Under the pieces are notes generated by a model, which worked only from the letters and a program-made list of their open reading frames with translations, had not been told where the DNA came from and did no database searches. A DNA stretch of 64,000 nucleotides from an uncultured Gammaproteobacteria bacterium (GTDB lineage Bacteria; Pseudomonadota; Gammaproteobacteria; HK1), in assembly GCA_958295465.1 (NCBI GenBank), contig OY282353.1, forward strand, positions 4,765,001-4,829,000, in the 5' to 3' direction. Positions 53,753-64,000 of this stretch are shown here, piece by piece. The translations under genes and the position numbers were made by a program. How positions within the stretch are numbered: the stretch's first letter is position 1; every line of letters starts with the position of its first letter.

Positions 53753-54019
53753 GCAATCGCTCCCCGCCGGTCCGACACACCGGCTTCGATGAGGCCGTCA
53801 CGGGACCCTCCATATGCAGCCATCCAGCGTCCATCCGGATCTCAGGCGTTGACTTCTTCGGCCGGCGGAAGTCTCTGCGACGGAACGGCCCGATGGCTCC
53901 TGCGCGGAAGACCTGGACGGCGACCAGCCAAGCCCGATAGTCCAGACTTGGCTTTCGGTGAATCTCGCAACGGCCGAGCCTGTTGTCGCCCTCGGTCCAG
54001 CCCGGCCCACTCGCCCAGC
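53753..54019. other. intergenic, no supported feature
   Basis: About 270 bp between the VOC gene start and the deleted dehydrogenase copy. Frames present are short and lack motifs. Confidence 0.5.
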
Positions 54020-54745
54020 TTACGCCCGCAGCCGCTCGTTCCCGGGGTCGTACGCGGGCTCGGCCAGCACCGTCGCCGCGCGCGGCTCGCCGAGGACGTC
54101 GATGGCGAACGTCGTGCCCGGCGCGGCCAGACGAGGCTCGACGTAGGCGAAGCCCAAGCTCCTGCCGGTGTAGTGGCCGTAAGCGCCGGAGGTGGTGACC
54201 CCGACCGCCTTCCCGTTCGCGATCACCGGCTCCCCGCCGTGCACGTCGCAATCTCCCGGCTCGACCTCGACGTAGACGAGCTGCGTCGCGATACCCGCCT
54301 GCTTCACCCGCTGCGTCGCCGTCTTGCCGATGAAGTCGTCCTTGCCGAAGGCGGCGAAGCGCTCCATGTCCGCCTCGACCAGGGTGATCTCGTTGGTGAG
54401 TTCCGCCCCCCAGCCCCGGTACGCCTTCTCCATGCGCAGCGAATTCACCGCGTAGGTCCCGAAGTCCGCGATGCCGAACGCCTCCCCGGCCGACCACACC
54501 GCGTCGTACAGATCGGCGAGACGCTCCATCGGACAGTGCAGCTCCCAGCCCAGCTCGCCCACGTAGTTCACCCGCAGTGCGCGAACCGGGATCCCAGCCA
54601 CACCACCATCACCTCGTCGTGCTCCAGGAACTCCCGGATCGGCTCGGTGACGAGATAGGTGTGCTCCATGTTGGTGATCGGCACGTCGGTGCCCGCCATC
54701 CGGCTCACTTGGCGCGCGTAGCACCCGGCCGCGTTCACCACTATT
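54020..54745 (-). pseudogene. deleted copy of the dimethylglycine-dehydrogenase-like gene
   Basis: Bases 54020-54600 match the 3' end of the intact gene (58067-58645) with only scattered differences. This part encodes VRALRVNYVGELGWELHCPM through the C-terminal NERLRA. At 54601 the match jumps to the part equivalent to 59757-59903 (GcvT-proximal half of the flavin domain), with a frame change at the junction, and then ends. About 1.1 kb is missing internally and the 5' end is absent. No functional enzyme can be made, though a GcvT-domain peptide is conceivable. Confidence 0.88.
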
Positions 54746-54973: not shown

Positions 54974-56599
54974 TTACCCAAGCTCCGGATTCAAAGCATC
55001 CGTCAAAGCGCCCGCAATGATTTCCGCTCGCCTTCGCACAAATGTCTTGTAGTTGTCGTCCCAGATGCCCATCTCCTTTGGTGACTCGATATAGTGAGTC
55101 GCCAATGCCTTCCGCAGGTTACGGTTTTTCTTGAATTCAGCTACATACTCGCTTGGAGCTCTGGCCCGGATGATTCGCTTGTTCAGATAGTCGTCCACCA
55201 GGACGATGTTCATCAGTGAATTCGAATCTTCGCGCTTATATCCTTGTTTTTCCAAAAAAGAACGTGGGAAAAAGTGATGATAATTCTTGCTTGTCGAAAT
55301 TCTGAGCCAATCGTTGCCAAGGATAACGTCCCCGTTGGTATTTAGACGCTGCGGTCCTTTTTCGGCCAAAAGGCAGATTATTGCTTTACAGAAGGCGTCG
55401 CCTACGCTGAACGGTTGCCATTCTAAATCATCGACCTCAGTCTTCAGCTCCTGCGTGTCGTATCGCGGTTGTCTTCCTTTCAAGATCTTTTTCATTTTTC
55501 TTAGATCGTCGGCAACTTTTGTCGCTACGGCAGACTGGAAACGATAATTGAGGGATGCCCAATAGAAGTATTGTCTCAGAAGCGCGTGCTGATCAGTAGA
55601 TATATCATGGCCATCTTTTTGGACGAAGAACCACGAAAAAGGTATGAGAAGAGCATTGTAAGGTAGAATACGGGAAACACTAATTCTCAAGTGGGTACGG
55701 AGATAATCTATGGCTGCAAACAAGCCTTTTATCGTTGGTTCCCACGAGTCGATGAACAGATTCCTGTCTATTTTGAGGACATCTCTCCGGTTAATGGAGC
55801 CGGATGCATTAGCTGCCACACATTGAAGAATCGTTTCTGCAGGAAGCCCATCATAGCCTGCCGATTCAAGATCCTTGTCATCGCCATCTGTAGAAATCAA
55901 TTCATCGTAATATTTAGCCAAATCAAAGTCACGTTCTTGATCAAATGTCTTCGCCACCATGATTTCGAAGAGTGTAAGTTCCTTGCCACCAGTGTTGATC
56001 CGCGTAAATACTTCACAGGCAACATCTATAGGATATTCGTCAATTACGACTGTGGAAAAAGCATAACCTTCCAAACTGGTTTTATATTCCGAAATCCGAT
56101 CAAGATATTGGGCTCCATGATCGTCGAATAGTTCTTTCAGGGTAGCATTCAGCAATCGAAATACCGAAATATACTCGTGTCCGTTGGGTGCCTGCTCGAA
56201 TACTACTTCATCCTCATCACCGGGATCGATAGTCAGATCGATGGCGATGTCTTTGTAATCAATCTTTTTACCATCGCGCGTAATTCTGATACCTTTCCGG
56301 ACAGCATACAGAGATGTTATCCGTTGCTGACCATCCAGAACATACTGGACCGGATCACCGGAGCGAGGTTCTTTGAGTTCGATGTTCCCGATGTTGCGCA
56401 TGTGCCGCAAGCGATCATTCGTTTTCCACAAAATGAATGTGCCTATTGGAAAGCCTTTCAAAATGCTATCAATCAGGGCCGCCGTCTGCGCCTTCGTCCA
56501 CACAAAGTCCCTCTGAAACTGAGGGATCTTGATCCTCCCCTTATCAATGTCGGTAAACAGTACGCTGTACTTCTCGTTCTGATTCTTGGGTTGTTTCAT
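54974..56599 (-). CDS. DUF262 protein with C-terminal HNH-like nuclease motif
   Basis: A 541-residue protein. The N-terminal DUF262 (ParB/Srx-like NTPase) domain has IPQFQRDFVWTKAQ near 25-38 and the key DGQQR motif (89-93, VLDGQQRITSLYAV). The C-terminal part has NYHHFFPRSFLEKQGY (His 441/442) followed by NSLMNIVLVDDYLNKRI, a DUF1524-like HNH nuclease pattern. DUF262-DUF1524 proteins include GmrSD and SspE, which restrict modified or unmodified phage DNA. The ATG overlaps the upstream gene by ATGA. Coding is strikingly AT-rich relative to the window, suggesting recent transfer. Confidence 0.85.
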   Translation of the reverse strand: MKQPKNQNEKYSVLFTDIDKGRIKIPQFQRDFVWTKAQTAALIDSILKGFPIGTFILWKTNDRLRHMRNIGNIELKEPRSGDPVQYVLDGQQRITSLYAVRKGIRITRDGKKIDYKDIAIDLTIDPGDEDEVVFEQAPNGHEYISVFRLLNATLKELFDDHGAQYLDRISEYKTSLEGYAFSTVVIDEYPIDVACEVFTRINTGGKELTLFEIMVAKTFDQERDFDLAKYYDELISTDGDDKDLESAGYDGLPAETILQCVAANASGSINRRDVLKIDRNLFIDSWEPTIKGLFAAIDYLRTHLRISVSRILPYNALLIPFSWFFVQKDGHDISTDQHALLRQYFYWASLNYRFQSAVATKVADDLRKMKKILKGRQPRYDTQELKTEVDDLEWQPFSVGDAFCKAIICLLAEKGPQRLNTNGDVILGNDWLRISTSKNYHHFFPRSFLEKQGYKREDSNSLMNIVLVDDYLNKRIIRARAPSEYVAEFKKNRNLRKALATHYIESPKEMGIWDDNYKTFVRRRAEIIAGALTDALNPELG

Positions 56600-57045
56600 G
56601 TTGAAATTCCCGTTGAGGTCATATTTGGCGCCGATCCCTGAATACCGACCGCGACAGCTACTTTTTGACGCAGTCGGGACGAAATCCGGCGAACGAGTTC
56701 ATCCTTGGGAGGTAATTTGGTGTTCGTCATGCCCAGTTCCCTGGCCAGAGCACATAGCTCACCTTTGACGGACATTTGTATAAGCTCACGTTCGACTGGT
56801 TCGCCGTTTTTAGCGTGTTCTGTTAACTGTTCTATGATACGGCGCGCAGCATTTCCGTCCATATGCCGGCGAGGACTTGACGCCTGTTTCGGTTGACTTG
56901 AAGGAGGTAGCGCAGCTTTGGCACGTCTTTCGATACGCAATATCTGCTGCGACAATTCACGGAGAACTCCCTTGACTTCTGACAGCTCGAGGACAAGCAT
57001 CTCCAACTCATCTTGTTGCTCGGTACGTCCGCTGCCGGTTGTCAT
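56596..57045 (-). CDS. small coiled-coil protein with SAP-like DNA-binding motif
   Basis: A 149-residue protein. The N-terminal part is a predicted coiled coil (ELEMLVLELSEVKGVLRELSQQILRIERR). A Pro/Ser-rich linker follows, then MSVKGELCALARELGMTNTKLPPKDELVRRISSRLR. That pattern resembles a SAP or helix-extended-helix nucleic-acid-binding motif. I do not know a named family. It starts with an ATG overlapping the ParA stop (ATGA) and ends overlapping the DUF262 start (ATGA), so it is the middle gene of a tightly coupled operon. Likely an adaptor linking the ATPase and the nuclease. Confidence 0.75.
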   Translation of the reverse strand: MTTGSGRTEQQDELEMLVLELSEVKGVLRELSQQILRIERRAKAALPPSSQPKQASSPRRHMDGNAARRIIEQLTEHAKNGEPVERELIQMSVKGELCALARELGMTNTKLPPKDELVRRISSRLRQKVAVAVGIQGSAPNMTSTGIST

Positions 57046-57908
57046 TTGAGAATCCTCGAAATTTCTTTCCATAGTGATCTGAAATTGACGACGAGCTCAT
57101 CCGGTGTAGCTCTGTTTGTGATGGCATCACGTAAAGATGCTCGATCTGGAATCCACGTGCCCATGAATCGGACATCGATATTGTTTTGACGGCTGGTCTG
57201 TTCACACGCCATCCGGACATCACCAATCCAGCCTGCCGCCGCTTTGGTCGGTTGTTTGGCATACGTTCGTGCTCGATTAGCAAATACACCCAATGCGGGT
57301 AACGGATGCGGCTGTATTCGGTGGCGCAGACCGGTGATCAGCATGCCTACACCACGAGCGGCGAAGAAATCCGGATTGAATGGAACAAGAATCAGATCAC
57401 AACAGGTAAGAACGCTATAGGACAGCATGGTAAATGACGGGGGACAATCAAAGAGAATGTAGTCGTATTTTGGCAGATTTGGAGAATTCTGGATTCTGCC
57501 AAGAAGATTCTTCACGAAAAATTTGCCTTTTCCAGGATCCGGGCTCTCAAGTTCCAACCAGTAGAGATGTTCGATCGATGGAACGAAATGGTAGTTCTTC
57601 TTGAGTCGATAGATGAAATCGTTGTCCGGCTGGAAATTCGACAGATCACTGTCCAGATGTTGACGGAGGACAGAGAAGATATCTCGTTTGTTCTTCCTGG
57701 TTTTGTCCAGCCACTTGTCGAATTTCCCCGATGAATTGCCGTCGGCATCCAACGCGATGGCCTGAGTCATGGACATCTGCGCGTCGAGATCGAAAAGCAA
57801 CACGCTGGAATCGGCAAAATTCGAAAGGATGTCTCCCAGGCACCAAGTGACCGTTGTCTTTCCGACGCCACCCTTGAAGTTGATTGTTGCGACGGTTTTG
57901 ATGGACAT
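57042..57908 (-). CDS. ParA/MinD-type AAA ATPase
   Basis: A 288-residue deviant-Walker ATPase. Walker A is KGGVGKTT (12-19), the A' motif reads LFDLDAQMSMTQ, and Walker B YILFDCPPSF; DLILVPFNPDFFAARGV follows. This is a ParA/Soj fold that dimerises on ATP and usually binds DNA. There is no ParB partner; the next genes encode a coiled-coil protein and a DUF262-HNH protein. A role as a positioning or sensing ATPase in a defence-like operon is proposed. A ribosome-like AGAGG lies upstream of the ATG. Confidence 0.9.
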   Translation of the reverse strand: MSIKTVATINFKGGVGKTTVTWCLGDILSNFADSSVLLFDLDAQMSMTQAIALDADGNSSGKFDKWLDKTRKNKRDIFSVLRQHLDSDLSNFQPDNDFIYRLKKNYHFVPSIEHLYWLELESPDPGKGKFFVKNLLGRIQNSPNLPKYDYILFDCPPSFTMLSYSVLTCCDLILVPFNPDFFAARGVGMLITGLRHRIQPHPLPALGVFANRARTYAKQPTKAAAGWIGDVRMACEQTSRQNNIDVRFMGTWIPDRASLRDAITNRATPDELVVNFRSLWKEISRILK

Positions 57909-57931
57909 TGATTTGGGACCTCTTTCTTGGC

Positions 57932-57959
57932 GTTACACTCGGATCGTGGACCAGTTCAA
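57932..57959 (-). promoter_or_regulatory. candidate promoter of the ParA-DUF262 operon
   Basis: On the minus strand, TTGAAC (57959-57954) and TGTAAC (57937-57932) are spaced 16 bases, a fair match to a sigma-70 promoter. It lies 24 bases upstream of the ParA start codon, in AT-richer DNA. Confidence 0.35.
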
Positions 57960-58066
57960 TACTCTGAAATCCGATCTGCGTACACTGGCGCGGGCATGTT
58001 CCGCGAATATGGTAGCGCTTTGTACGCTCAAGCGACACCCGGCACCGCTCCGCCGCGGCCGCACGC

Positions 58067-60493
58067 TCACGCGCGCAGCCGCTCGTTGCGGGGATCGTAA
58101 GCAGGCTCGGCCAGCACCGTCGCCGCGCGCGGCTCGCCGAGGACGTCGATGCTGAACATCGTGCCCGGCACGGCCAGACGAGGCTCGACGTAGGCGAAGC
58201 CCAGGCTCCTGCCGGTGTAGTGGCCGTAAGCGCCGGAGGTGGTGACCCCGACCGCCTTCCCGCCCGCGATCACCGGCTCCCCGCCGTGCACGTCGCAATC
58301 TCCCGGCTCGACCTCGACGTAGACGAGCTGCGTCGCGATACCCGCCTGCTTCACCCGCTGCGTCGCCGTCTTGCCGATGAAGTCGTCCTTGCCGAAGGCG
58401 GCGAAACGCTCCATGTCCGCCTCCACCAGGGTGATCTCGTTGGTGAGCTCCGCCCCCCAACCCCGGTACGCCTTCTCCATGCGCAACGAATTCACCGCGT
58501 AGGTCCCGAAGTCCGCGATGCCCAACGCCTCCCCGGCCGACCACACCGCGTCGTACAGATCGGCGAGACGCTCCATCGGACAGTGCAGCTCCCAGCCGAG
58601 CTCGCCCACGTAGTTCACCCGCAGTGCGCGAACCGGGACTCCGGCCACCTCGATCTCCTTGCCGGTCAGCCAGCGGAAGTGCCCGTTGCCGAGCTCGGCA
58701 TCGGTGAGCTTCGCGAGCACCTCGCGCGAGCGCGGCCCGGCGAGCACCAGCACCCCCCAATCCCCGGTGACGTTGGCCACGGTGACGTCGTGCCCGTCGC
58801 GCGGTCCCTGCACGAGGCTGTCCATGTCGCGGTCCTCGGCGCCGGCGCCCGACAGCACGTAGAAACGATCCGGGGCGAGCCGGGTGATCGTGGACTCGCC
58901 GGCGATGCGGCCCTCGTCCGAGAGGTAGTGCGCGAGCACGATGCCGCCGAGTCGCCTCGGCATGCGGTTCGCGGTGATCGTGTTCAGGTACGCCTCGGCT
59001 CCCGGCCCGGTCACGTCGTACTTCGCGAAGCTCGACAGATCCAGCACCCCCACCCGCTCGCGCACCGCCCGGCACTCCGCCGCGACCACCTCGAAGACGT
59101 TGTTGTGGCGGAATCCGACCTCCTCCTCCCGCCCGTCGAGCGAGAACCACTTCGGGCGCTCCCAGCCGTTCGCCTCCGTGTACACGCAGCCCTTCGCGGC
59201 GAGCTTGCCGAACAGCGGCGTGACCCGCTCGCCGCGCGAGGCGGGGCGCTCTTCGCCGGGCAGGTGCAGGACGTACATGTGCTCGTAGTCCTGGTGGGAC
59301 TTGGCCTTCGTGTACTCCCCGGGGGCATGGCCGCCGAACCGGCGCGGGTCGACGCCCGCCATGTTGATCTCGCTGTCCCCGTGCACCATCCACTGCGCGA
59401 GGTACTTGCCACAGCCCGCGCCGGACGCGATGCCGATGGACGCGCCGCAGCATTGCCAGAAATTCTTCAACCCCGCGGCCGGGCCGAGCAGGGGGTTCGC
59501 ATCGGGGGTGTGCGGGATCGCGCCGCATACGATGCGCTTGATGCCGGCGTCGCGCCAGATCGGCATCCGCTCCAGCACCCGCTCGACATAGGGGGCAAGC
59601 CGGTCGAGGTCCGCCTCGAACAGCTCGTTCTCCGCATCCCACTCCGGCCAGCCGCCGCGGTGGCTCCAGCACTCGGCGGACCCCACCGGCTCGTAGATGC
59701 CGATGAGCCCCGCCTTCTGCTCCTGGCGGTAGTACGCCGACGCGTACGGATCACGCATCACCACCATCTCCTCGTCGCGCTCCAGGAACTCCCGGATCGG
59801 CTCGGTGACGAGGTAGGTGTGCTCCATGTTGGTGATCGGCACGTCGGTGCCCGCCATTCGGCTCACCTGGCGCGCGTAGCACCCGGCCGCGTTCACCACC
59901 ATCTCGCACACGACGTTGCCTTGATCGGTGACCACCTCCCACTCGCCGCCCGGACGCTGCTTCACGTCCGTTACCCGCGTACGGCGGGCGATCGTCGCGC
60001 CCATGTCGCGCGCGCCTTTCGCGAGCGCGTTACAGCAGCCGGCGGGGTCCACATGGCCGTCCCCGGTGGTCCAGGCGCCCGCGAGCACGCCCTCCACGTT
60101 CACGAACGGATTGATCTGCTTGATCTTCTCCGGATCGATGATCTCGCAGTGGAAGCCGATGAGCTTGCCCACGCTCGCGACGTGATGGAACCACTCCACC
60201 TCGGCCGGCTTGAGCGCAAAACGGATGCCGCCGCATCCGTGCCAGCTCACGTACTGCCCGGTCTTCTCCTCGAGCTTCGGGTAGAGCCTGACCCCGTAGT
60301 CGTGGATCTTCGCCATGTTGTAGTCGGCGATGAAGCTCGGGCACTGGCCCGCCGCGTGCCACGTCGAGCCCGACGTGAGCTCCCCCTTCTCCACGAGCAG
60401 GATGTCGGTCCACCCTTCCTCGGCGAGGTGGTAGAGCAGCCCCGCTCCCATCATTCCGCCGCCGATGACGACGACTCTCGCATGACTCTGCAT
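58067..60493 (-). CDS. dimethylglycine/sarcosine dehydrogenase-like FAD protein with GcvT domain
   Basis: An 808-residue two-domain enzyme. Residues 1-400 are a DAO-type FAD domain (VVVIGGGMMGAGLLYHLAE; STWHAAGQ with H46, which corresponds to the histidine that covalently binds FAD in dimethylglycine dehydrogenase). Residues about 425-808 are a GcvT-like THF-binding domain (RVGVLDLSSFAKYDVTGPGAEAYLN, ANVTGDWGVLVLAGPRSREVL, RVNYVGELGWELHCP, TTSGAYGHYTGRSLGFAYVEP). It would oxidatively demethylate dimethylglycine or sarcosine and load the carbon on THF. The ATG at 60493 follows GGAGG. Two partial copies flank it at 54.0 and 61.9 kb. Confidence 0.92.
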   Translation of the reverse strand: MQSHARVVVIGGGMMGAGLLYHLAEEGWTDILLVEKGELTSGSTWHAAGQCPSFIADYNMAKIHDYGVRLYPKLEEKTGQYVSWHGCGGIRFALKPAEVEWFHHVASVGKLIGFHCEIIDPEKIKQINPFVNVEGVLAGAWTTGDGHVDPAGCCNALAKGARDMGATIARRTRVTDVKQRPGGEWEVVTDQGNVVCEMVVNAAGCYARQVSRMAGTDVPITNMEHTYLVTEPIREFLERDEEMVVMRDPYASAYYRQEQKAGLIGIYEPVGSAECWSHRGGWPEWDAENELFEADLDRLAPYVERVLERMPIWRDAGIKRIVCGAIPHTPDANPLLGPAAGLKNFWQCCGASIGIASGAGCGKYLAQWMVHGDSEINMAGVDPRRFGGHAPGEYTKAKSHQDYEHMYVLHLPGEERPASRGERVTPLFGKLAAKGCVYTEANGWERPKWFSLDGREEEVGFRHNNVFEVVAAECRAVRERVGVLDLSSFAKYDVTGPGAEAYLNTITANRMPRRLGGIVLAHYLSDEGRIAGESTITRLAPDRFYVLSGAGAEDRDMDSLVQGPRDGHDVTVANVTGDWGVLVLAGPRSREVLAKLTDAELGNGHFRWLTGKEIEVAGVPVRALRVNYVGELGWELHCPMERLADLYDAVWSAGEALGIADFGTYAVNSLRMEKAYRGWGAELTNEITLVEADMERFAAFGKDDFIGKTATQRVKQAGIATQLVYVEVEPGDCDVHGGEPVIAGGKAVGVTTSGAYGHYTGRSLGFAYVEPRLAVPGTMFSIDVLGEPRAATVLAEPAYDPRNERLRA

Positions 60494-60508
60494 GGCATCC
60501 TCCGACAA

Positions 60509-60764
60509 TGTGTTCCGGGTGTTCAGGTGGTCCCGGCGACTGCAGCGATTTCAAAACACCTGGGGCCGTCGTGCAACATCTCTCGGAAGTCGCTTGAACT
60601 CTCCTTCGAGACTCGCACTTTCCCTCGCCGAGCTGCGCGCTGATCTGCCGGCCGAAACGTAGATTGCTTGAATCCCTACAGGGTCCTTGAAACAAGGGAT
60701 TATTCCTTGTCCGGCAGGCACGGTACGCCGATCGACGGTTCATCTGGGCGAAAAGGCGTCCGCT
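60509..60764. other. intergenic region with a small inverted repeat
   Basis: About 255 bp upstream of the dehydrogenase start. ACAAGG (60692-60697) and CCTTGT (60705-60710) form a small hairpin, and CTTGTCCGGCAG occurs twice (near 60706 and 60844). No gene is supported. Confidence 0.4.
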
Positions 60765-61352
60765 TCAACGTACGCGGGCACCCTCGATCCTGGCGACGAG
60801 ATCAGCGGCCCACCGCGGTAAGGGTGCAACGTAGCGGACAACTTCTTGTCCGGCAGCTTGGGCGACCACCCGCGCGTGTACACCGGAGTTGTCCAACAGC
60901 AAAATGTTGGCGAACAACGGCGCTGTCCTCGCAAGATTATCCTGGACCGCGGTCCAGCGGCGAACAATCTCCGCCGCGGGAACGTCATGGCCGGTTCGAT
61001 GCCTTACGCGCAAAGCCACCCGATCAATGTTGATCTCGGGGGATTGCGTGCCGACGAGAACGGCGTCGATGTCGTAACAGAGCGTGCGGGCGCGACGCAC
61101 GATGTCGGGCCGCGACATGCCCGAGTAGGTGCTCTCGAAGCCGAAAGATTCACCGCGTTCCAGGTGGTCTTCAATGCGGCGATCCACCCACTCCCGCGCC
61201 TGCCGTTGCAGCGCCGGATCGTCGTAGCTTCCCAGACCTTCGGCGATGCTGTCGGCGTCGTAGAAATCCGCAGGCAGTTCTCGACGATTGTTGCGGCTCC
61301 AAGTGCTTTTGCCGGCGCCGTTGGCGCCGACCACGATGGTCAACCGCGCCAC
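60765..61352 (-). CDS. zeta-toxin-like P-loop kinase
   Basis: A 195-residue P-loop protein. Walker A is GANGAGKST (9-17), with FYDADSIAEGL near 35, FGFESTYSGMSRPDIVRRA near 80 and VALRVRHRTGHDVPAAEIVRRWTAVQDNL near 125. This is the pattern of zeta/PezT-like toxins that phosphorylate UDP-sugars or other small molecules. The start is a GTG eight bases after the stop of the small upstream gene. Its 3' half is duplicated in antisense at 36.9 kb. Probably the toxin of a two-gene module. Confidence 0.82.
   Translation of the reverse strand: MARLTIVVGANGAGKSTWSRNNRRELPADFYDADSIAEGLGSYDDPALQRQAREWVDRRIEDHLERGESFGFESTYSGMSRPDIVRRARTLCYDIDAVLVGTQSPEINIDRVALRVRHRTGHDVPAAEIVRRWTAVQDNLARTAPLFANILLLDNSGVHARVVAQAAGQEVVRYVAPLPRWAADLVARIEGARVR
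60918..61078. repeat. segment A, copy in toxin gene
   Basis: This is the 161-bp match to 36925-37085. Here it is an internal, in-frame part of the zeta-toxin-like gene (minus strand), so this is the parental location. Confidence 0.85.
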
Positions 61353-61360
61353 GGTGGAAG

Positions 61361-61627
61361 CTACTTGGCGATTGGCGGGATGTATGGAAATTCGAGATCT
61401 TGCGGATCGCCCCGGCGGAAGTGGTCTACCCGCCCGTCCGGCCAAGTGCGGGTGATCATGCCATCCGAGATTCGGCGGTGCTCGACCACGCCGTTGGGTT
61501 CCTCCGCGATGATGACGTCGCTGTCTTCATCCGGCATGTAGACGAACGCCTTGCCTTGTTCGAAGCATATTCGCCGGGAATCCATGTCGCTGTCCAGAAT
61601 CCAGTCGAGGGAGGCATTCGTCTTCAT
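61361..61627 (-). CDS. small hypothetical protein, probable antitoxin partner
   Basis: An 88-residue acidic protein starting MKTNASLDWILDSDMDSRR. VYMPDEDSDVIIAEEPNGVVEHRRI and TRTWPDGRVDHF follow. It sits directly upstream of, and is nearly coupled to, the zeta-toxin-like kinase, as antitoxins usually are, but its sequence does not match epsilon or PezA. The ATG at 61627 follows GGAGTT. Antitoxin function is inferred from position only. Confidence 0.6.
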   Translation of the reverse strand: MKTNASLDWILDSDMDSRRICFEQGKAFVYMPDEDSDVIIAEEPNGVVEHRRISDGMITRTWPDGRVDHFRRGDPQDLEFPYIPPIAK

Positions 61628-61811
61628 GGGTAGCAACTCCAAGTACCGTGCCGCTTGGCGATCGATGCTGCCACGGTCGGAGCGTCTCCTTCAAGTTGCG
61701 AATGTCGCATGCAGGCAATCCGCAGGCGAAGGGGTGAGTGGATCGGGCGATGGCGGAGCAGGCGGTTTACCGCTCGCTTGCGCCGGGGACAACACCTGCG
61801 CCCCGGTGAGT

Positions 61812-61913
61812 CCATGCCGCCCTGCCCGCGCCTGCGTTCCTGATACAACCCTACCCTGCCGCCGTAATACTTATGGGGAAATGGTGCTGGACGATGCCGG
61901 ATCTCCCGGTCGG
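61812..61913. repeat. segment B, second copy
   Basis: A 102-bp match to 37085-37186 with a few substitutions and no length change. Here it is followed directly by a fragment of the dimethylglycine-dehydrogenase-like gene. No coding role is evident. Confidence 0.85.
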
Positions 61914-62059
61914 TCAGCCAGCGGAAGCGCCCGTTGCCGAGCTCGGCATCGGTGAGCTTCGCGAGCACCTCGCGCGAACGCGGCCCCGCCAGCGCCAGCA
62001 CCCCCCAATCCCCGGTGACGTTGGCCACCGCCACGTCGAGCCCGTCGCGCGAGCCCTGC
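61911..62059 (-). pseudogene. 149-bp fragment of the dehydrogenase GcvT domain
   Basis: The stretch matches about 58665-58813 of the intact gene. Its frame encodes VTGDWGVLALAGPRSREVL, AKLTDAELGNGRFRWLT, then leaves the gene at the junction with segment B. Both ends are cut. It is the third copy of this gene in 8 kb. Confidence 0.85.
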
Positions 62060-62210
62060 GTCTACTGCGCTGCAGGTCGAGGCGAAGCCACCATCCCCCC
62101 ATGCAGCTCTCGACACTGTTTCGGGCCGGGCTTTTCCGGACTTCCCCGGATTCCACCCGGCGAAGTACACTCATCCCGCCTCCGGGATCGGCCGCCACGG
62201 AGCGCGCGCC

Positions 62211-62486
62211 ATGACCTCCACTCCCTTCGACACCTTCAGCGCCGCCCGCGCTCTCGAAACAGCCGGGGTCGAACGCCCGCAAGCCGAAGCCATCGCATCG
62301 GCCATCGGCCAGACCGGCGGATACGCCACGAAAACCGATGTCTCCATGCTGAAAGCCGACCTTTCCACCCTGGAATCGCGAATGGAAGCACGCTTTTCCA
62401 GTCTTGAAGCGCGCATGTACCGCGCCCTCTGGATTCAGGGCGGGGCCATCGTCGCCATCCTTGCCGCCTTGAAGCTGCTGGCGTAG
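62211..62486 (+). CDS. small coiled-coil membrane protein, DUF1640/CCDC90-like
   Basis: A 91-residue paralogue of the protein at 10606-10848. It has the helical N-terminus (FDTFSAARALETAGVERPQAEAIASAIGQ), a coiled coil (SMLKADLSTLESRMEARFSSLEARMYRAL) and a C-terminal hydrophobic helix (GGAIVAILAALKLL). Function unknown; one membrane anchor at the C-terminus is predicted. It starts at the first ATG after the rearranged zone. Confidence 0.7.
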   Translation: MTSTPFDTFSAARALETAGVERPQAEAIASAIGQTGGYATKTDVSMLKADLSTLESRMEARFSSLEARMYRALWIQGGAIVAILAALKLLA

Positions 62487-62549
62487 CGGTCCCGGCGGTG
62501 TCCACCCCGATCCGAAGCTCGAAGCGAGGGCGTGCACCGGGAGGAAGAC

Positions 62550-62882
62550 ATGAAGAAGTTCATCTGGCTATCGTATGACCTGGGTATCAACGGCGACTAT
62601 GAAGGCTTGTATTCCTGGCTTGACGATCGTGACGCGCAAGAGTGCGGCGACAGCGTAGCGTATCTCCCGTTTTCGTATGACGGAGATCTGGTCGAATCAC
62701 TCAAGGCGGAGCTGCGTAGTGCGGTCTCGATGAATAAACGCACGCGAATCTATGCTGTTTACAAGGACGATGGAAGATTGAAGGGCCGCTTCATGTTCGG
62801 TGGACGCAGGCGAGCGCCCTGGGAGGGCTACGGAGCGCACGAGGAGCAGGACGAGGACGAAGCCGATGTCCATGCGTCCTGA
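62550..62882 (+). CDS. hypothetical protein, possible antitoxin-like partner of a PIN gene
   Basis: A 110-residue protein beginning MKKFIWLSYDLGINGDYEGLYSWLDDRDAQECGDSVAYL. The family name is unknown to me, but this N-terminus looks conserved, and the C-terminus is acidic (HEEQDEDEADVHAS). GGGAGGAAGAC precedes the ATG. The next start codons (62866, 62872) lie inside its 3' end and begin a PIN-domain frame, so the two genes were coupled. It may be a toxin-antitoxin module whose toxin half is now broken. Confidence 0.65.
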   Translation: MKKFIWLSYDLGINGDYEGLYSWLDDRDAQECGDSVAYLPFSYDGDLVESLKAELRSAVSMNKRTRIYAVYKDDGRLKGRFMFGGRRRAPWEGYGAHEEQDEDEADVHAS

Positions 62883-62958
62883 AGTTCTTCTGGTAGATTC
62901 CGGATTCTTCTTCGTGCTTTTCGACCCGAGAGACTCCCAATCGAAAGACGCCGCCCGG
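62872..62958 (+). pseudogene. truncated PIN-domain gene
   Basis: The frame begins MRPEVLLVDSGFFFVLFDPRD, the first strand and catalytic Asp of a PIN domain, and continues about ten residues. It then runs into the antisense of larB. The rest of the domain is deleted at the junction near 62958. Confidence 0.65.
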
Positions 62959-62963
62959 TGGAC

Positions 62964-63620
62964 TCATCCGGCGAGGCGCAGTGCCCGCAACGCCACACAG
63001 GCCGCGCCGTAACCATTGTCGATGTTGACGACGGCGAGTCCGGGCGCGCAGCTCGACAGCGACGCATCGAGCGCGACCCGGCCGCCGGCCGATACCCCGT
63101 ATCCGTTCGAGGTCGGGACCGCGACCACGAGCCCGGGGACCTGCCCCCCCACCACGCTCGGCAGCGAAGCCTCCATGCCCGCGACCGCGAGCACCACCGG
63201 CATCGCGCGGATCTCCTCGATTCGATCGAGCAGGCGCCACAGGCCGGCGACGCCCACGTCGTAGACCTCCAGGGCCGTCTCGCCGTAGTACGCCAACGTG
63301 CGCACCGCCTCCTTGGCGACCGGCACGTCCGAGGTGCCCGCGGTCACCACCGCGACCCGCGGCGTTCCGGACCCGGCCGGCCCCCCCAGCATCGCGGTAC
63401 GGGACACCGGGTCGTAGTCGAGCGCGGTGCGATGCGCGGGGACGAGCGCATCGAACATGCCGGCGTCGAGCCGGGTGAGGAGCAGGGGGCGGCTCGCCTC
63501 GATGCTTCGAGCGAGGATGGTGTCGAGCTGGCTTGGAGACTTCCCCGCGCAATAGATCGACTCGTCGAAGCCGATCCTCCCGTGACGCGCGTCGTCCGGC
63601 ACCACCTCCCGTTCAGGCAT
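62964..63620 (-). CDS. larB: LarB, nickel-pincer cofactor biosynthesis (AIR-carboxylase-like)
   Basis: A 218-residue LarB. It carboxylates and hydrolyses nicotinic-acid adenine dinucleotide in making the nickel-pincer cofactor of lactate racemase-type enzymes. RVAVVTAGTSDVPVAKEAVRTLAYYGETALEVYDVGVAGLWRLL, VLAVAGMEASLPSVVGGQVPGLVVAVPTSNGYG and VVNIDNGYGAACVALRAL are the conserved blocks. The ATG overlaps the larE stop by eight bases, indicating an operon. Confidence 0.93.
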   Translation of the reverse strand: MPEREVVPDDARHGRIGFDESIYCAGKSPSQLDTILARSIEASRPLLLTRLDAGMFDALVPAHRTALDYDPVSRTAMLGGPAGSGTPRVAVVTAGTSDVPVAKEAVRTLAYYGETALEVYDVGVAGLWRLLDRIEEIRAMPVVLAVAGMEASLPSVVGGQVPGLVVAVPTSNGYGVSAGGRVALDASLSSCAPGLAVVNIDNGYGAACVALRALRLAG

Positions 63621-64000
63621 GGCCGGAAGGTCTCAGAAACGCGCTGCCCATGCGGTAGGGCTCGAACCGGACCGTGCGCGACACCCCGGCCGCGGCCATG
63701 CGCTGGTCCAGCTCTCCGGCGAGTACGGCGCGGGCGGGCGCATCGAGAGCGGAGAGCGCAACGTCGTCGAGCTCGACCACCACGGCGGCGCGGCGCACCC
63801 GGCATCGCACCGTGGCCGCTCCCGTCGCGTTCCGCACCATCCGTTCGCACGCATCGATGGCCTTCAACACCGCGGGGTCGATGGCGATGCCGGTTTCCAC
63901 CCGGCTCGACAGGCATGGCGCGGCCGGAAGCTCGGCGAGGTCGTCGAGCCCGAGCCGGGCCGCGATGGCCCGGACCGTGGACTTGCCGATGCCGCACTCG
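63613..64000 (-). CDS. larE: LarE, ATP-dependent sulfur transferase, C-terminal part
   Basis: A 5'-truncated gene; the frame is open to the window end. GIGKSTVRAIAARLGL, then PAAPCLSSRVETG fits LarE, whose Cys in the PAxxCLSSR motif is the sacrificial sulfur donor. The C-terminal domain (AIDACERMVRNATG, VSRTVRFEPYRMGSAF) completes it. LarE, LarB and LarC together build the nickel cofactor; larC and larA lie outside the window. Confidence 0.9.
   Translation of the reverse strand, partial: ECGIGKSTVRAIAARLGLDDLAELPAAPCLSSRVETGIAIDPAVLKAIDACERMVRNATGAATVRCRVRRAAVVVELDDVALSALDAPARAVLAGELDQRMAAAGVSRTVRFEPYRMGSAFLRPSGHA

Follow-up and report, generated by a model that had tools for sequence, protein, structure and literature searches.

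A recently acquired AT-rich operon combining a ParA-type ATPase, a small coiled-coil protein and a DUF262-DUF1524 nuclease

The window, a stretch of 64,000 nucleotides from an uncultured gammaproteobacterium, carries on its minus strand three genes with intact frames, in the order ParA, coiled-coil, DUF262. The first encodes a ParA-type (deviant Walker A) ATPase of 288 aa (P0001; 57042..57908), recognized by Pfam and PHROG matches, by its motifs and by a homolog (P0004) in genome G538. The second encodes a small basic coiled-coil protein of 149 aa with a predicted C-terminal helix-loop-helix (P0002; 56596..57045), described on basis of its heptads, a structure model and the homolog P0005. The third encodes a protein of 541 aa (P0003; 54974..56599), which was assigned to the DUF262-DUF1524 (GmrSD-family) NTPase-nucleases by its GmrSD_N domain, motifs and AF2 fold. 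Both joints consist of an ATGA stop/start overlap (57042..57045, reading TCTCAA-ATGA-CAA, and 56596..56599, reading TTCAAC-ATGA-AAC), which would imply translational coupling of the three genes, and a plausible Shine-Dalgarno sequence precedes the ParA gene. The GC content of the genes is 48.6, 51.8 and 45.5%, respectively, against ~68% in the surroundings, and their GC3 is 0.47-0.55 versus 0.82-0.93 in four flanking metabolic genes. The genes, order, coordinates and overlaps given in an earlier, sequence-only reading of this DNA were thus all recovered, as was the AT-richness that it had pointed out (46-52% GC in the operon).

The operon is located directly downstream of an intact gene for an FAD-dependent oxidoreductase/GCV_T-type dehydrogenase (58067..60508, minus strand; Pfam DAO, FAO_M, GCV_T and GCV_T_C), which bounds the insert upstream. 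The downstream boundary is a truncated second copy of that gene (about 53971..54744, minus strand), delimited by repeats D1 and D3 and by the alignment to the congener G005. The truncated copy is a remnant that misses ~1.1 kb internally. The direct repeats of a metabolic gene that had been proposed to flank the module are indeed there, with 95% identity between 54018-54317 and 58065-58364 and 96% between 54601-54744 and 59759-59902. In G005, which over a continuous match is 97.6% identical to the window from 58065 to 64000, intact dehydrogenase gene included, this gene is followed without interruption by its own 3' flank and a glyoxalase gene, and the same unbroken order is found in G003 and G004. 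In the window the ancestral 3' flank is joined to the truncated copy and not to the intact one. Considering that the three-gene block and the truncated copy are absent from all three congeners, the block was recently acquired, and it entered together with the second gene copy or via recombination between gene copies, so that the earlier suggestion of a gain as one unit is supported. The pattern at the site is the one expected from a single-crossover (Campbell-type) event, the divergence between the copies being no proof of it. Neither an integrase gene nor a tRNA or terminal repeat was found at the site and, given that the window holds no tRNA, integration at a tRNA site did not take place there. 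The block itself contains no replication, relaxase or integrase gene.

The same dehydrogenase gene has been copied and broken repeatedly in this region, as a third fragment of 160 bp (61900-62059; 91%) is present inside a stretch that also occurs in G005. Moreover, a rearrangement relative to G005 adjoins the insert: the aldehyde dehydrogenase region at 50700-53000 matches G005 at 98%, where it lies >20 kb from the glyoxalase gene. A zeta-toxin-like P-loop kinase is encoded nearby (60765-61445, minus strand; Pfam AAA_33 and Zeta_toxin over cut-off; GC3 0.68), preceded upstream by an open frame of 93 aa (61361-61642, minus strand), and from their sequences the two possibly form a toxin-antitoxin pair. 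Since the kinase gene belongs to a stretch shared with G005, no defence island is visible at the locus.

P0003 matches Pfam GmrSD_N at 1.3e-32, whereas its GmrSD_C match is under the cut-off (14.2 vs 23 bits). The QR, DGQQR, FxRIN and HH..P motifs and the residues N460, N464, N473 and R524 are invariant across nine sequences, and the residues of the C-terminal His-Me (HNH) site (H441, H442, P445, N464 and N473) are invariant among the relatives of P0003. The AF2 model (pLDDT 83) has BrxU as its top structural match (Foldseek 2.8e-13), followed by SspE and DndI. Superposition on BrxU gave a Z of about 19 over 467-480 residues (VIA-align) with an rmsd of 17-18 A, so that the domains must be placed differently. 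Residues 1-213 (about) align with the CTPase domains of ParB, Noc and KorB at a modest Z of 5.2-5.7, and residues 402-515 with the HNH domain of Cas9 at a modest Z of 4.9. A ParB/Srx fold has already been assigned to GmrS in the literature (PMC4619093), and this fold, which would favour cooperation with the ParA, is general to the whole DUF262 family. By motifs and fold P0003 is apparently an intact GmrSD-family enzyme, in agreement with the earlier identification of the third gene as one for a DUF262-HNH nuclease, and the closest known kind is anti-phage. By analogy P0003 is probably an anti-phage restriction enzyme, and judged by its sequence it is a further, previously undescribed and mobile member of the GmrSD family.

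The ATPase shows the motifs KGGVGKTT, DLDAQ and FDCPPS on direct reading and matches Pfam AAA_31 (2.5e-27) and the ParA-like PHROG (1.8e-30). Its similarity to ParA_partition (2.2e-17) is well below the cut-off of that model, and the PDB match to McdA is weak (9e-8). In P0002, residues 11-38 carry a hydrophobic residue at every a and d position of the heptads, a result obtained in 7 of 2000 shuffles, and an AF2 model from the single sequence, of low confidence, places helices at 9-45, 66-79, 86-103 and 114-132. The coiled coil proposed for the middle protein therefore stands. The SAP-like label is unproven, as residues 86-132 form only a predicted helix-loop-helix of low pLDDT that has no Pfam or PDB match. 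P0002 had no match in plasmids, PHROGs or the PDB and matches no ParB or RHH family. A parS-like repeat array was not found upstream of the operon, in a search that a lone parS site could escape. ParA ATPases have diverse activators, which make use of a positively charged N-terminus (PMC7993993). The known ones are rich in such charges, while P0002 and its homolog P0005 share a single N-terminal Arg (R7 and R6, respectively) and thus lend weak support to this role. P0002 may be considered a candidate ParA activator or adaptor by analogy.

The ParA family to which P0001 belongs was sampled in about 770 genomes of one phylum, together with plasmids, phages and viral contigs, which is a small sample. 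Within the same-phylum genomes, P0004 of G538 was the one close relative (53% identity in a global alignment). It is directly followed, with an identical ATGA overlap, by P0005, which is homologous to P0002 (E 4e-8, about 30% identity over the alignment) and in which the coiled coil and the two C-terminal helices are retained. This pair is chromosomal and lies between unrelated genes, with a convergent ABC-transporter gene after P0005. No GmrSD_N protein is encoded anywhere in the G538 genome (98% complete), from which it follows that the ParA/coiled-coil pair can exist without the nuclease. Among 72,556 plasmids no close relative of P0001 was found, the viral contigs yielded no close ParA relative but one weak match of 73 residues, and a contig search with the two-member ParA alignment returned, among the matches listed, ordinary ParA genes only (about 25-31% identity).

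The nuclease has its own distribution. Relatives of P0003 at 40-43% identity were found on the chromosomes of G283 and G267, on plasmids of Rhodobacterales (Roseinatronobacter and Pseudosulfitobacter) and of Pannonibacter, and on viral contigs from IMG/VR, of which one also carries portal and major-head (capsid) genes and another is with genes for a DnaB-like phage-type helicase, an HNH protein and a methyltransferase. None of these relatives has a ParA of the P0001 family nearby, nor has any of the 88 DUF262 open frames outside the locus, a redundant set in which many frames have only 1.5 kb flanks. The G267 relative (43%; L005:1492-3612) is 706 aa long, with an extension that by eye is apparently an AlbA_2-like domain and with an open frame of 281 aa following it, and a viral contig (L162:3224-5635) encodes a DUF262 nuclease of 803 aa with an additional C-terminal extension. 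Any ParA within 5 kb of a DUF262 frame was encountered only at the window locus and on two related Sulfitobacter plasmids (L022:1165-3766 and L130:5062-7554), where repA, parA, an RHH-like gene and DUF262 follow each other in sequence, so that ParA, small partner and nuclease are ordered as in the window. There, the nuclease (42% identity to P0003) lies directly behind a ParA of 217 aa and a partner of 82 aa, which constitute the plasmid's own partition pair and are unrelated to P0001 and P0002. This layout indicates that a GmrSD gene can sit behind a partition pair without belonging to it.

The sequence-only reading had proposed a candidate defence system with a conserved gene triplet, to be abandoned if the genes did not co-occur elsewhere. 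We found the ParA, coiled-coil and DUF262 genes together in no second genome that could be searched, within limited sampling; what recurs is one ParA/coiled-coil pair, without DUF262, and nuclease relatives without a P0001-family ParA. Given that each half is seen elsewhere without the other, the operon is an unusual one-off combination and not a proven defence system. The combination is absent as a PADLOC system, and a literature search, with subscription journals mostly outside its coverage, yielded no paper on a ParA with DUF262 defence operon. Relative to PADLOC and the literature searched the combination is new, and it was seen once.

Several known systems share part of the arrangement. 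With GmrSD and BrxU, P0003 has in common a DUF262 domain with QR, DGQQR and FxxxN, a helical linker and a DUF1524 His-Me nuclease, but it is only about 16-17% identical to BrxU, and its gene shares an operon with those for a ParA ATPase and a coiled-coil protein, an arrangement not reported for GmrSD in the literature consulted. PADLOC system PDC-M55 (AAA ATPase, PDC-M55B and DUF262) is likewise a single operon in which a middle gene accompanies those for an ATPase and a DUF262 protein, and P0003 matches PDC-M55C at 1.8e-52. The window ATPase, however, is of the ParA type and not of the PDC-M55A type, and membership was rejected since P0001 and P0002 match neither PDC-M55A nor PDC-M55B. A complete PDC-M55 is present elsewhere in the same genome (L047:6920-10877; G000:C1 about 2109.9-2113.9 kb), with scores of 6.8e-74, 3.9e-35 and 1.1e-130 for A, B and C, the last being a DUF262 protein that shares 29% identity with P0003. 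GrwAB and TgvAB of Vibrio cholerae also couple a DUF262-DUF1524 nuclease to a partner from the adjacent gene (PMC12137116), but GrwB and TgvA carry DUF262 themselves, unlike the ParA and coiled-coil partners in the window, and Menshen is a DUF262 system paired with an OLD nuclease (PMC10952713). On the ParA side, McdA/McdB, PomZ/PomX and ParA/ParB likewise have a ParA-type ATPase followed by a small protein with a coiled coil, in pairs that can stand alone, and P0001 shares the deviant Walker ATPase with ParABS, yet no carboxysome, division or parS context was found for the window pair.

We favour, at about an even chance, a reading of the operon as a recent acquisition made up of two separable modules, with the ParA pair as the accessory. 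The first module would be a self-contained ParA-type ATPase with its small coiled-coil partner, in which P0002 probably stimulates the ATPase and tethers it to cargo or DNA, like the activators in ParA/ParB, McdA/McdB and PomZ/PomX. In the second, the ParB/Srx-fold DUF262 domain would sense modified or foreign DNA and hydrolyse NTP, which would free the C-terminal His-Me (HNH) domain of P0003 for cutting. Restriction of phage or plasmid DNA is the most likely role of P0003, and presumably also that of its stand-alone relatives, whereas the ParA pair would be a co-transcribed cassette for positioning or maintenance and not a required subunit, the modules being, as we infer, functionally independent. 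Against this, the two ATGA overlaps and the common foreign composition fit a single co-selected unit, and the G538 pair could have been left behind after loss of its effector, considering that only one other pair was found.

The two overlaps and the matching composition argue for an integrated three-part defence system, in which the ParA, via the coiled-coil adaptor, would load, position or restrain the ParB-fold nuclease on DNA with a ParABS-like logic. We regard this as a serious possibility, though with a probability clearly short of even. The alignment of the DUF262 domain with ParB, Noc and KorB and the dedicated partners in GrwAB, PDC-M55 and Menshen are consistent with it, but the pair occurs in a genome without a GmrSD protein, near relatives of the nuclease occur on their own, the ParB fold is family-wide and the triplet was seen once. 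A further step, in which a ParABS-like cycle brings the nuclease onto DNA or concentrates it there and the ParA/coiled-coil pair perhaps acts as a general carrier with different effectors per host, seems unlikely to us. More doubtful still is that the block is a stranded piece of some plasmid or integrative element, now chromosomal, with the first two genes as partition cassette and the nuclease as passenger. The low GC relative to the host, the absence of the insert from congeners, the Sulfitobacter gene order and the sub-threshold ParA_partition similarity would fit such an origin, but the plasmids searched hold no close ParA relative, the block has neither a replication, relaxase or integrase gene nor an upstream parS-like array, and the G538 pair is chromosomal. 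A functionally meaningless juxtaposition through recombination among the duplicated dehydrogenase-gene copies, suggested by the gene fragments at the site and its rearrangement relative to G005, is hardly credible, since the three genes overlap exactly, have undamaged frames and are uniform in their foreign composition.

The preferred reading of two separable modules leaves real room for cooperation between pair and nuclease, because of the tight gene overlaps, and the modelled ParB-type fold of DUF262 beside a ParA is suggestive of it. GmrSD enzymes have a ParB-type NTPase fold, yet no tie to a ParA ATPase appeared in the literature found. Control of the nuclease by the ParA pair would make the operon a mechanical link between DNA partition and DNA restriction; without such control, the locus still defines one more mobile GmrSD nuclease and a ParA/coiled-coil pair that is rare and uncharacterised.
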